Source: Candidatus Poribacteria bacterium (GTDB taxonomy: Bacteria; Poribacteria; WGA-4E; PCPOR2b). Taken from it: a stretch of DNA of 64,000 bases. Below, in pieces: positions 3,549-8,603 of this stretch (its first letter is position 1; each line of letters begins with the position of its first letter). The stretch lies in contig JAJECO010000081.1 in the NCBI GenBank assembly GCA_022822005.1, positions 1 to 64,000 of the forward strand. Reading direction: 5' to 3'. Both the position numbers and the translations under genes were made by a program. The notes beneath the pieces are model-generated. The model did not search any database and was not told the DNA's origin. It was given only the letters and a program-made list of their open reading frames with translations.

Positions 3549-4510
3549 ATAACCTTATGCAAACCCCTATCATCGGACACCAGCAGATCCTCGAACAGCT
3601 ATACCATGCGATTGCATCGAACCGTGTGGCGGGTGCCTACCTGTTCGTTGGAGTTGCCAATGTCGGAAAAGAGACCGTGGCTCTCCATTTTGCAAAGTCG
3701 ATTAATTGTCTTTCATCAGATGAGGCAGCCTGCGGGACCTGTTTATCCTGCCGCAAAGCCGATGATGGGAACCATCCCGATCTTCAGATTATCCGACCAT
3801 CGGGAGCTTGGATCAAGATTGATCAGATCCGTGAATTGCAAAAACGGATTATTTACCGACCGCTTGAAGGGGTGCGAAAGGTCTACATCTTGACGGAAGT
3901 AGAACGGATGAACCTCGAAGCTGCGAACTGTCTGCTCAAAACGCTTGAAGAACCACCCGCCGATTCGGTTTTAATCCTCCTGACCACAAATCTTGATGCG
4001 ATGCTGCCCACGATCCGATCCCGGTGCCAAATCATCCCTTTCCACCCACTCCTTGTTTCCGACCTTGCTGGGCATCTGATGGAGCGATTCGACATCGATG
4101 AAACCCAAGCGTTCTCAATTTCGACAGCAGCCGGAGGGGCGGTCGGCAAGGCATTGGGGCTGCTTCAAGATGGAGCGGAGTTCGATGAAGATATTCCTGA
4201 GATTATGATGGCCGGTAACAGGCTGGACGCCTTCCGTATTGCAGAAAAATGGACGGCACAACCGGAGGCGCTTGACCACCTCGTGACTTGGTATCGTGAT
4301 TTAGTGATGCTGCATCAAGGGGCTCCCGCGAACTTGCTCACTCATGTTCATCATGCAGAAGAGCTCAGACAGCTGGCAACCCATTACTCGCGGTTACAGT
4401 TGCAGTCGGCAATCAAGGCAATTTTCGAGACGAAAGCTATGCTGCAACGCAATGTCAATGCGACATTGGCTCTGGAGGTTCTGGCTTTGAAGTTATTGCG
4501 TAAACCGTAA
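3545..4510 (+). CDS. holB: DNA polymerase III delta' subunit
   Basis: Clamp-loader subunit that helps load the sliding clamp at the replication fork. 321 aa in the GTG frame; an ATG at 3557 is an alternative start. Seen: a DnaX-like AAA+ fold with a zinc module (Cys55, Cys63, Cys66, Cys69), a degenerate P-loop ending GKE instead of GK[ST] (residues 36-43), the LLKTLEEPP segment and the SRC sensor motif near residue 162. Delta' subunits usually do not hydrolyse ATP, so the P-loop decay fits. The gene overlaps tmk by 4 bp, a common bacterial pairing. The last 20 codons, including the stop, are repeated in altered form at 5519-5578 (see the remnant entry). Confidence 0.93.
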   Translation: MNNLMQTPIIGHQQILEQLYHAIASNRVAGAYLFVGVANVGKETVALHFAKSINCLSSDEAACGTCLSCRKADDGNHPDLQIIRPSGAWIKIDQIRELQKRIIYRPLEGVRKVYILTEVERMNLEAANCLLKTLEEPPADSVLILLTTNLDAMLPTIRSRCQIIPFHPLLVSDLAGHLMERFDIDETQAFSISTAAGGAVGKALGLLQDGAEFDEDIPEIMMAGNRLDAFRIAEKWTAQPEALDHLVTWYRDLVMLHQGAPANLLTHVHHAEELRQLATHYSRLQLQSAIKAIFETKAMLQRNVNATLALEVLALKLLRKP

Positions 4511-4535
4511 AGTTCACGGATAGGAGGAATTAGTC

Positions 4536-5471
4536 GTGGCGTTAGGTAACTTACAAAGTGCTATTGAGAAACTACAGAAAACGATTGAGGCACATCGTGG
4601 ATATTTGACTGAAAATGAAACCCGTACTCGGCAGGTGCTGATCGATCCGTTGCTGCGGAAGTTGGGTTGGGATGTGTCAAATCCGAATATAGTTCAGCTT
4701 GAATATCGGGTGCAGGAGCAATGGGCAGATTATGTACTGATGTCAAAGGGTAAACCGGTTGCTGTGGTTGAAGCAAAAAGACTAAGGAGTGATTTAGGCG
4801 ACGATCAAATTATGCAGGCACTCAACTACGCAAATGCGGATGGTATTCCTTACATGATTATCGCTAATGGAGATACATGGGAGATGTATGACGTCTTCAA
4901 GCCTGCCACGTTGGAAGAGCGTCTGTTGATGAAGTTAGAATTGTCTCAACAGCCGGCTCGTAAGAATGCGGAGCAGGCATTAGCAATGAGGAAGCCAAAT
5001 CTCACCGCTAAAGAACCAGTCTTTAAGCGGCCAAAGCGTGCGTCTAAGCGCAATAAGTCACCGAAACCGTCTAAACCACTAGGACGCAAATGGTATTCCT
5101 TCGACTCGGACGAGTGGTATCCGCAACATACCAAGCCGAGCGAATTGAGGATAGGTAATCACCCCGGGAAAGGCGTTACTCATTGGCTGGATGTCGTTCA
5201 TGAAATTGTTACCTGGCTCATTGACGAGGGCATGTTGAGCGACAATGACTGTCCAATCGAGATAGGGAAGTGGCCCTTCATTAGTCGCAAAGCTGTGAAC
5301 CCTGATGGCACCCCTTTCGATAATCCGCAAGAACTACCGAACAGTCTCATTTTGCAACGCGGCGGCCTAACGACCGAACAACAATTCAGCAGATTAAGGA
5401 AGTTGCTAATTCAATTTGACGTACCTCTAAGCACGATTCGTTGTAGACTGACCGGGCAAGCCAGCCGCTAA
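4536..5471 (+). CDS. HSDR_N-type nuclease-like protein, copy 1
   Basis: 311-aa protein with an N-terminal domain like that of type I restriction R subunits (HSDR_N, a PD-(D/E)xK fold). Visible: TRTRQVLIDPLL near residues 28-39, an Asp in WADYVL, and the catalytic-type pattern VVEAK at about 76-80, so the nuclease-like site looks intact. There is no helicase motor. A Lys/Arg-rich linker (about 165-185) leads to a conserved C-terminal domain of unknown function (about 185-311) that contains HEIVTWLIDEG, CPIEIG and NPDGTPF. The start is GTG at 4536 with AGGAGG-like RBS at 4522-4527. It follows holB by 25 bp. A diverged tandem paralogue starts exactly 1068 bp downstream. Function unknown; a role in defence or DNA processing is inference. 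Confidence 0.8.
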   Translation: MALGNLQSAIEKLQKTIEAHRGYLTENETRTRQVLIDPLLRKLGWDVSNPNIVQLEYRVQEQWADYVLMSKGKPVAVVEAKRLRSDLGDDQIMQALNYANADGIPYMIIANGDTWEMYDVFKPATLEERLLMKLELSQQPARKNAEQALAMRKPNLTAKEPVFKRPKRASKRNKSPKPSKPLGRKWYSFDSDEWYPQHTKPSELRIGNHPGKGVTHWLDVVHEIVTWLIDEGMLSDNDCPIEIGKWPFISRKAVNPDGTPFDNPQELPNSLILQRGGLTTEQQFSRLRKLLIQFDVPLSTIRCRLTGQASR

Positions 5472-5518
5472 ATACACCAAAAATCAATCCCTCCAATTTG
5501 GGTTGAACTGATGTAGGA

Positions 5519-5578
5519 AACGTCAATGCGACTTTGGCTTTAGAGGTTTTGGTTTTGAAGTTGTTACGTAAACCGTAA
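5519..5578 (+). pseudogene. Remnant of the holB 3' end at the tandem-duplication junction
   Basis: This stretch aligns without gaps to holB 4451-4510, at an offset of 1068 bp, which is also the offset between the starts of the two HSDR_N genes. It still reads as the last 19 holB codons plus the TAA stop. Eight bases differ: seven are synonymous (Asn, Thr, Leu codons) and one changes Ala to Val. Similarity fades upstream of 5519. The segment has no start and cannot make a protein. It therefore marks the left boundary of a duplication or transferred block that carried the holB tail together with the HSDR_N gene. Confidence 0.85.
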
Positions 5579-5603
5579 AGGTTGCAGATAAGGGAAATTA
5601 GTC

Positions 5604-6641
5604 ATGGCGTTAGATGATTTGCAAGGCATTATTAAGAAGTTACAGGACGTGATTGAGACGCATCATAATTATCTGTCTAGACATGAGACTCGCACTCGGC
5701 AGGTGCTAATTGATCCGTTATTAAGGGAGTTGGGATGGGATGTATCAGATCCGGAGGCAGTTCAACTGGAATACGCAGTTAAACTTGAATATAGAGCAGG
5801 GAAGAAATGGGCGGATTATACACTGATGTTCAAGGATGAATCAATGTCCGACGATGAACCGAAGCCTGCTGCCGTGATTGAAGCGAAGCCGCTGGGAAGC
5901 GATTTAGAAGATGATAAGATGATGCAGGTTCTTAACTATGCGAATCGAGATGGCATTGATTACATGATTGTCACTGATGGTGACAAATGGGAGATGTACG
6001 AGGTCTTCAAGAAGGGCACATTGGAAGAACGTTTGTTAATGAAGTTTTGCTTGTCCCAGCAGCCTGCTCATCATAGTGCGTTGCAGGCGTTGGGGATGTG
6101 GAAACCAAATCTTGCCTCTGATGGTGGTCCATCTAAAGCAATAGAACCAGTATTCATATCACCAGAACCTATACTGGATCGCCCCAGCAGTCAATCCAAT
6201 GAACAGCCAGAACAGCAGCTGCCCGACGACTTACCGGAAGATTTTGACCAGTGGTATTCTCTCACATCGGAGCGAAGATATCCATCATACACCATACCAA
6301 TCCAGTTGAAGATAGGTACTGATATTGATAGGCGGGTTAATACTTGGAAGGATGTCATCCACGAAGTTATTACTTGGCTCGTTGACAAAGACATATTGAA
6401 GGACAACCATTGTCCAATCGAGATCGGGGAGAAAACTTTCATCAGTTCTGAAGCAGTGAACCGTGATGGTACACCGTTCAAAGACCCACGACAACTGCCG
6501 AAAGGTCTCATCTTGCAGCGTCGCACATCGACGCCCTTGGGTCAATGGGAGGGATTCAGAGCGTTATTAGATCAGCTTAAAGTGGATACAAGCACGGTTC
6601 GAGTGTCTCATAAGCCGGACGTTTCGGTTAAGCGGAAGTAG
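5604..6641 (+). CDS. HSDR_N-type nuclease-like protein, copy 2
   Basis: 345-aa paralogue of the gene at 4536, colinear over the whole length. The N-terminal HSDR_N part keeps TRTRQVLIDPLL, WADYTL and the ExK pattern in VIEAK, so the nuclease-like residues are intact here too. Differences: an extra tyrosine-containing segment (about residues 54-60), an acidic insertion just before VIEAK, and a Gln/Asp/Glu/Pro-rich linker where copy 1 has a basic one. The C-terminal domain keeps HEVITWLVDK, CPIEIG and NRDGTPF. The start is ATG at 5604 (GTG in copy 1) with AAGGGAA upstream. No methylase or specificity subunit lies nearby, so this is not an ordinary type I restriction operon. Function unknown. 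Confidence 0.8.
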   Translation: MALDDLQGIIKKLQDVIETHHNYLSRHETRTRQVLIDPLLRELGWDVSDPEAVQLEYAVKLEYRAGKKWADYTLMFKDESMSDDEPKPAAVIEAKPLGSDLEDDKMMQVLNYANRDGIDYMIVTDGDKWEMYEVFKKGTLEERLLMKFCLSQQPAHHSALQALGMWKPNLASDGGPSKAIEPVFISPEPILDRPSSQSNEQPEQQLPDDLPEDFDQWYSLTSERRYPSYTIPIQLKIGTDIDRRVNTWKDVIHEVITWLVDKDILKDNHCPIEIGEKTFISSEAVNRDGTPFKDPRQLPKGLILQRRTSTPLGQWEGFRALLDQLKVDTSTVRVSHKPDVSVKRK

Positions 6642-6692: not shown

Positions 6693-8603
6693 ATGAGTAC
6701 ATTCTACATTACAACACCGATATACTATACCAACGCCGAGCCGCACGCCGGACATGCGTACACAACCATCGCTGCTGACGTGATGGCGAGATACCATCGT
6801 CTCAAAGGGGACGACGTTCTTTTTCTAACCGGTGTGGATGAGCATGGAGAGAATATCCAAAAAATCGCTGACCAGAAAAACATCTCTCCACAGGCTTACT
6901 GCGATCAGATCGCCCCAACGTTCACGACGCTCTGGGAAAGGTTGAATGTATCTTATGACATCTTCCTGCGGACAACAAGCGAGCTGCACAAGAGCGGCGT
7001 AAGAAAACTCCTCAACACACTTTACGAAACAGGGGACATATACAAGGGGAAATATAACGGATACTACTGTCGTCCGTGCGAGCGCTTCTTCACCGAAAAG
7101 GAGCAGACCGAGGATAAGATCTGTCCAATTCACAATTTACCCTTAGAATGGGTCGAGGAAGATAACTATTTCTTCGCGCTTTCAAAGTATCAAGATCCGT
7201 TGATTAAACACATCCACGAAAACCCGGAATTCATTCAACCCGAAAGCCGTCGTAACGAGATGTTGAACGTACTCGAATCAGGGTTGGAAGACGTGAGCAT
7301 CTCACGGTCATCCGTATCGTGGGGTATCCCCTTGCCCTTCGACACAGAGCATATCTCTTACGTGTGGATCGAAGCGTTGAGCAACTATGTTACTGCCCTC
7401 GATTATGCCCAAGATGGGGAGCGGTTTAACAAATTTTGGCCCGCCAATGTTCACCTGATGGCGAAGGATATCGCACGCTTCCACGCGATTATATGGCCCG
7501 CGATGCTAATGGCAGTAGAATTGCCAGTCCCAAAAAAAGTTGTCGCCCACGGCTTCCTGACCAAAGATGGTGAAGCCTTGAGCAAGACGCTCGGTATCTT
7601 CATTGACATGGACACCGATATCGGGAAGTATGGATTGGACGCCTTCCGTTACTACCTGTTGCGCGAGTTCAGTTTCGGGAACGATGGCGATTACCGACCA
7701 AGCCGCCTTGATGCCCGCTATAATGCGGATCTCGCAAACGATCTCGGTAACCTACTCAACCGGACGCTCGGTCTCGTATCCAAAAACTTCGGCGGCATAC
7801 CTGAGCCGACGACCGCCGGAGAATTTGATGACGAGATTCAAGGGATGGCGCGGGAGACAATCGACAAGGTCGATGCCCTGATGGAGGAACTGGTCTTCGA
7901 TATGGCGTTGGAAACTATTTGGGAGTTTGTGCGCCGGATTAACCGCTATATCCAGCAAACACAGGTTTGGACGCTGGCAAAGTCGGAAGAAACAAAAGGA
8001 CGTATGGGAACCATCCTCTATAATAGCATGGAAGCCCTACGGGTTGTTGCTGTCCTCATCTCTCCCTTCATGCCCGACACCGCCAATCGCATCCGTCAAC
8101 AGCTTGGACTCGATGAGAGTTTCAACGACCAAGGATTGGATACGCTCACCGAGTGGGGAGGTTTAGCGTCGGGACTGTCGCTCGGCAAACCCGAACCCAT
8201 CTTTCCAAGGAAGGATACCAAGAAATCGAAGCAAGAGAGCAAACAGAAACCCGCCCAAGTGGAGCAGTCCGCCGATGACAACCTAATCTCCTTCGATCAG
8301 TTTCAGGAACTGGATCTGCGCGTTGCTGAAGTGATTGCTGCCGAGAAAGTCCCAAAAGCTGATCGTCTTCTGAAGTTACAGGTTGACTTGGGAAGTGAGA
8401 AACGTCAAGTTGTTGCCGGCATCGCGGAGCATTACGCGCCCGAAGACCTCATCGGAAAACAGATTATCTTGGTCGCCAATCTGCAACCTGCCAAGATAAG
8501 AGGTATTGAATCACAGGGGATGCTGCTTGCAGCTGAAGGTGGGAAAGAGTTGGCTATCGTCACGCTTGAGAAGCAGATGCCGCCGGGGGCACAAGTTCGA
8601 TAG
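6693..8603 (+). CDS. metG: Methionyl-tRNA synthetase with C-terminal tRNA-binding domain
   Basis: Charges tRNA-Met with methionine in the cytoplasm. 636 aa. Seen: class I signature HAGH (residues 18-21), a zinc knuckle CRPC then CPIH (about 126-150), a KMSKS-position motif that reads EALSKT (about 293-298), the anticodon-binding helical domain, and from about residue 535 an EMAP-II/Arc1-like tRNA-binding domain (LDLRVAEV, then ESQGMLLAA) that normally makes the enzyme dimeric. A charged Lys/Gln-rich linker joins the last two. The start ATG follows AAGGAA. The change from KMSK to ALSK keeps the second lysine but loses the first. Identity is secure. Confidence 0.96.
   Translation: MSTFYITTPIYYTNAEPHAGHAYTTIAADVMARYHRLKGDDVLFLTGVDEHGENIQKIADQKNISPQAYCDQIAPTFTTLWERLNVSYDIFLRTTSELHKSGVRKLLNTLYETGDIYKGKYNGYYCRPCERFFTEKEQTEDKICPIHNLPLEWVEEDNYFFALSKYQDPLIKHIHENPEFIQPESRRNEMLNVLESGLEDVSISRSSVSWGIPLPFDTEHISYVWIEALSNYVTALDYAQDGERFNKFWPANVHLMAKDIARFHAIIWPAMLMAVELPVPKKVVAHGFLTKDGEALSKTLGIFIDMDTDIGKYGLDAFRYYLLREFSFGNDGDYRPSRLDARYNADLANDLGNLLNRTLGLVSKNFGGIPEPTTAGEFDDEIQGMARETIDKVDALMEELVFDMALETIWEFVRRINRYIQQTQVWTLAKSEETKGRMGTILYNSMEALRVVAVLISPFMPDTANRIRQQLGLDESFNDQGLDTLTEWGGLASGLSLGKPEPIFPRKDTKKSKQESKQKPAQVEQSADDNLISFDQFQELDLRVAEVIAAEKVPKADRLLKLQVDLGSEKRQVVAGIAEHYAPEDLIGKQIILVANLQPAKIRGIESQGMLLAAEGGKELAIVTLEKQMPPGAQVR

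Follow-up and report, generated by a model that had tools for sequence, protein, structure and literature searches.

The gap between holB and metG, both essential genes, in this Candidatus Poribacteria bacterium holds two HSDR_N genes of different origins, separated by a scrap of the 3' end of holB, and the whole is best read – with a probability of roughly two in three – as an allele-exchange site at which one gene was stacked in front of another by one-sided homologous plus illegitimate recombination, with allele swaps to follow. Events of this kind are already known; the setting is new, and here the event can be dated and partly traced. It is the holB scrap that makes the order of stacking readable: the stacking itself would precede a species split, and the allele replacement would come after it.

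The window analysed (64,000 nucleotides of one contig) carries tmk, holB, the two HSDR_N genes and metG in this order, and the features from holB to metG all lie on the + strand. The first of these, holB (DNA polymerase III delta prime; 3560..4510; Pfam DNA_pol3_delta2, 4e-57), encodes a protein 95% identical in amino acids to its counterpart in the sister species. It is followed by a leader (4511..4535), by the first HSDR_N gene (copy 1, occupying slot 1; 4536..5471; 311 aa, start codon GTG; Pfam HSDR_N, 2e-13) and by a tail (CCAATTTGGGTTGAACTGATGTAGG; 5472..5518) that, in the alignment, ends at a recombination junction and resembles both the sequence downstream of the lone HSDR_N gene in another congener (G003) and the tail behind slot 1 of the sister species. 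At this junction starts the remnant of the holB 3' end (5519..5578), with 20 codons including the stop, recognised as a repeat and by a homologous remnant in the sister species; a second leader (5579..5603), the second HSDR_N gene (copy 2, in slot 2; 5604..6641; 345 aa; Pfam HSDR_N_2, 7e-8) and metG (6693..8603, identified by Pfam), which in the congeners bounds the exchange site on the right, complete the region. The reading frames of both copies are intact.

The first-pass annotation had drawn attention to the recurrence of the holB end and leader between the HSDR_N genes, and this holds: positions 5519-5603 repeat 4451-4535 (60 nt of holB plus the 25-nt leader) without a gap, at an offset of 1068 and with 82% identity over 85 nt, and the E value of 5.5e-18 from a search against the whole genome excludes a chance match. 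The 6.0 Mb assembly contains no third copy, and the gap-free homology extends into both genes (255 nt, 76%). Positions 4451-4510 comprise the final 20 codons of holB (stop included), encoding NVNATLALEVLALKLLRKP; the remnant differs from them at eight nucleotides and, just as had been counted, seven of the eight changes are synonymous, the sole exception being GCT>GTT (A>V). Under random change, seven or more synonymous changes out of eight would be expected with a probability of 0.0005-0.004 (transition bias 1 to 4).

The site was compared across six species of the genus, with one genome per species: this one (G000), the sister species (G004) and four others (G001, G002, G003 and G005). An HSDR_N gene lies behind holB in all six, with metG next or, in G001, after one further gene. 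That additional gene (L062 5043-6656) encodes a 537-aa AAA ATPase with AriA/PtuA-like matches; it adjoins an HSDR_N gene of the type called b below, and such an ATPase is found at the site in G001 only among the congeners. Scanning contigs with a holB alignment yielded 14 loci. No HSDR_N relative was detected behind holB in three other genera of the family, nor did tblastn find relatives of either copy around holB in more distant Poribacteria (seven loci, two of them short); a contig scan like that with holB, made with copy 2, found no relative, and matches to HSDR_N in the wider order were weak and distant only.

Within the genus, the N and C modules of these genes have been shuffled independently of each other. 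N-type a is found in slot 1 of both G000 and G004, N-type b in slot 2 of G000 and in G001, and N-type c in slot 2 of G004, in G002 and in G005, with a c-like form in G003; C-type X is shared by G000 (both copies), G004 and G003, and C-type Y by G001, G002 and G005. A tree of the C parts of type X, five in number, does not resolve. Another case of module exchange is provided by a second tandem HSDR_N pair elsewhere in the G005 genome (L068 2033-3124 and 3677-4660), whose leaders are identical and whose first ~50 residues are near-identical, the remainder being different.

The same order and orientation and the constant offset of 1068 are what one would expect from a recent, simple duplication within this genome, after which copy 2 and the remnant diverged by decay. 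This explanation is, however, extremely improbable. In the N-domain tree, copy 1 is sister to the slot 1 gene of G004 (support 100/98) and copy 2 to the holB-metG gene of G001 (96/96), so that each groups with the locus of another species, in line with the suggestion of the first-pass annotation that a diverged allele had come from a relative. A tree in which the two copies are kept together is worse by 50 log-likelihood units (AU p 8.6e-6), and duplication inside this genome alone – the null hypothesis that had been named – is therefore rejected; the same remnant is, moreover, present in G004. In neither of the two-slot genomes, G000 and G004, are the N parts of the two slots sisters. Between copies 1 and 2, dS in the N domain reaches 1.32, compared with 0.44 between the sister species for a core reference of tmk, holB and metG, and to label the pair an HSDR_N gene duplication, as had been done, is thus misleading: the genes are old, different alleles.

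The same core reference separates inheritance from transfer. The dS of 0.36 between copy 1 and slot 1 of G004, set against 0.44 for the core, argues for vertical descent of type a. For copy 2 and the G001 gene, dS is 0.55 against a core value of 0.84, which 2.5% of bootstraps reach; for slot 2 of G004 and the G005 gene, it is 0.48 against 0.92, reached by 0.03% of bootstraps. As both values lie below the core, transfer of types b and c between lineages that had already split is probable, the evidence from these sequences being moderate for type b.

What dates the stacking is the sister species, whose assembly also gives independent support to the two-slot arrangement. Between its type-a and type-c genes, G004 carries a decayed holB 3' end of its own (AATGTCAACACGACTTTGGCTTTG, then 15 missing nt, then AAGTTGCTACGTAAACTGTAG), preceded by the same tail and beginning at the same left junction as in G000 (CCAATTTGGATTGAATGAATGTAGAG joined to AATGTCAAC). 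Both remnants have ACT in codon 5 (ACA>ACT), a state absent from every working holB of the genus, and both have xTA in codon 16. As the remnant, the junction and the ACT change are common to the two species, the stacking appears to be older than their split, and a single event most likely made both remnants. The first-pass annotation had the remnant arrive in G000 together with copy 2, a view that does not survive the comparison, given that in G004 the same remnant and junction precede a type-c gene. Since the leader behind the G004 remnant (TAGCAATTTTGTGAGAGGATAGCC) matches the leader of the one-gene, type-c-like loci in G003 and G005, the alignment suggests instead a remnant that was once the holB end of a resident gene of type c (or similar), with type a placed in front of it. 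Slot 2 holds type b in G000 and type c in G004, so a later exchange is needed; copy 2 probably replaced type c there. At its far end, the slot 2 gene of G004 (L066 3658-3672) stops 14 nt upstream of metG, and its last codons seem to derive from the former metG leader (CGCAGTAAGTCA), that is, from a deletion of the tail.

From these comparisons we infer how the rearrangement came about, in what order, and where the alleles came from. The holB-metG gap would serve as an allele-exchange site for solitary HSDR_N genes in this genus. In the common ancestor of G000 and G004, an incoming segment – holB 3' end, leader, type-a HSDR_N gene and tail – would have been placed ahead of the final 60 nt of the resident holB and of the resident HSDR_N gene in a single step, by homologous pairing within holB on the left and by a non-homologous join on the right. 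By this step holB would have regained a new 3' end, while the old one was displaced downstream as a dead scrap before the old gene; the gene in slot 2 would have been exchanged later, to be of type c in G004 and of type b, with a G001-like N part, in G000. Its extension to a dedicated site, at which recombination in conserved flanks swaps and stacks the N and C modules of these solitary genes to give species-specific combinations of nucleases – a small defence hot spot without a recombinase of its own – is more tentative, and we would put it at somewhat under even odds.

The join itself has the form GTARRR / AAYGTCAAY, which cannot be read to the base: an unrearranged version of the tail would be needed for this, and the only locus with this tail and one gene, that of G003, carries a palindrome at this point. 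This palindrome (GGAACGCAGAT...ATCTGCGTTCC; L065 about 4733-4784, in the tail before metG) lies where the remnant begins in G000 and G004 and was not found in the G000 genome. The motif AACG is also present in the G003 tail, within the palindrome, and was considered as a microhomology at the join; it was dropped, as the palindrome starts at that very place.

The remnant has too few sites (60 nt) for a tree, and shared states were counted instead. It differs by six changes from the holB of G001 and by eight each from its own holB and that of G005. Of the eight positions at which it departs from the resident holB, six have states seen in the working holB of congeners (P of such sharing under random change, 4e-5 to 1.4e-3), and at one of these six the change is on the side of the resident gene. 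This bears out the earlier proposal that the divergence arose mostly in a working holB. The synonymous bias from which that proposal had been argued is accordingly to be explained in two ways, by divergence between working alleles, as had been supposed, and by changes that the holB branch acquired once the event had taken place, a component that had been left out of account.

That the fragment still shows protein-level constraint, as had also been claimed, is a different matter: there is no sign of present constraint. Only two states of the G000 remnant are absent from all compared working holB genes, one of them synonymous and one non-synonymous, and the G004 remnant has lost five codons (15 nt) and is altered, by A>T and P>L, at two of the 14 remaining amino acids. 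These losses also weigh against a remnant selected for serving copy 2 as a promoter, a translational leader or a small peptide, which the seven synonymous changes out of eight, and the stop codon and reading frame kept in G000, might seem to favour. In addition, the remnant frame offers no common start codon other than internal TTG, and no sigma-70-like promoter match was seen on the + strand there (a weak test), the promoter and terminator scan giving nothing above chance; we consider such a function highly unlikely. More generally, a scrap of pseudogene can owe an excess of synonymous changes to divergence inherited from working alleles, and such a bias is no proof of a function today.

One set of features fits the simplest stacking model less well. 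Both leaders of G000 contain a TAA stop and a ~16-nt deletion in the leader alignment, and both features are absent from G004 and G001. They are left unexplained by that model and suggest that within the G000 lineage the two leaders have a shared ancestry, whether by copying between slots, from a donor of the same species, or by duplication followed by replacement of the gene body; they favour some copying within this lineage. They would also fit an initial copy of the kind required by the main rival explanation, a tandem duplication in the G000/G004 ancestor of the stretch running from the last 60 nt of holB through the HSDR_N gene to its tail, with foreign alleles later taking the place of one gene or of both through ordinary homologous recombination, which predicts exactly the observed join of an HSDR_N tail to a holB 3' end. 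It requires extra allele replacements, however, the N parts of the slots being non-sister in both two-slot genomes, and a new copy undergoing decay would be expected to share fewer than six of eight states with the working holB of relatives, except where replacement had also taken in the holB end. We thus hold tandem duplication to be unlikely, if the most serious competitor, and prefer stacking by an incoming type-a segment.

The geometry of the locus – a gene end restored on one side and the old end left on the other – is also that produced by integrases using the 3' ends of genes, with the 60-nt repeat as the attachment site of a mobile element. Yet the 1068-bp insert holds an HSDR_N gene only, with no integrase or transposase, the repeats are 82% rather than fully identical, and the genes of the other congeners sit directly behind holB without a second repeat, so that site-specific integration is barely credible.

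Stacking at one homologous end has a precedent in homology-facilitated illegitimate recombination (HFIR), known from laboratory transformation or conjugation (PMC3240628), in which, as proposed here with holB, one end is joined via homology and the other non-homologously, so that part of the anchor gene ends up repeated; the difference is that here the process is read from a fossil in two species, with a join placed less finely than to the base. HFIR has been proposed by the authors of a study of Vibrio cholerae T6SS immunity-gene arrays, whose members cluster with the genes of other strains (PMC5361080); that paper also cites displaced Rhs 3' ends, which look to be a comparable case. Of the marks of an HFIR array, which include a non-homologous join with short microhomology, two are seen in our locus: its members come from different lineages and not from each other, as the tree and the AU test indicate, and a truncated copy of the anchor gene lies at the far side, in G000 as in G004. 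As in the Vibrio arrays, a new module stands behind a conserved upstream anchor, the older gene is pushed downstream and the members are closest to those of others; unlike there, the cargo is a solitary nuclease-like gene behind the replication gene holB rather than an effector or immunity gene, and there are two slots only. The locus thus suggests that in an uncultured phylum the route proposed for these arrays has carried what is probably a restriction-type nuclease.

As for this cargo, both copies score above the curated Pfam cut-offs for HSDR_N and HSDR_N_2 (25.1 and 25 bits), with 50.9 and 31.6 bits for copy 1 and 30.5 and 33 bits for copy 2. Like the HsdR N-terminal domain proteins (PF04313/PF13588; 3h1t), they have E28, D65, E79 and K81 (the last two as E79-x-K81), which are invariant across 13 relatives. 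The HsdR fragment 3h1t was the top match in both fold and sequence searches, other restriction endonucleases including DrdV also being matched; the fold matches have low TM values (about 0.3 by query length), from models of moderate confidence (mean pLDDT 71). The N domains evolve fast yet are under purifying selection (dN 0.10, dS 0.36-0.55).

Unlike full HsdR proteins, the copies are short (311-345 aa) and lack type I restriction–modification partners: a domain search found no translocase or helicase domain in either, NCBIfam HsdR models match the N part only and far below cut-off, and there is no hsdM or hsdS between holB and metG in this genome or in congeners with readable flanks (tmk-holB, metG). 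A complete type I HsdR subunit, or a type I system, was thus rejected for want of a translocase part and of adjoining hsdM/hsdS. Judging from the domain and the invariant D65 and E79-x-K81, the copies probably act as stand-alone, restriction-type (PD-(D/E)xK nuclease-like) nucleases in anti-phage defence; restriction systems have been reported to abound in sponge metagenomes (PMC5099237). The C-terminal module of neither copy has a Pfam match. Proteins combining HSDR_N with DUF4268, represented in G005 by a dispersed paralogue that carries DUF4268, have a related N part but differ from both copies in the window, which have the C-type X module. The G000 genome encodes a third HSDR_N relative on contig 51 (L069 2415-4109; 564 aa), with an extra N-terminal part of ~220 aa and a C part resembling that of the DUF4268-bearing paralogue of G005.
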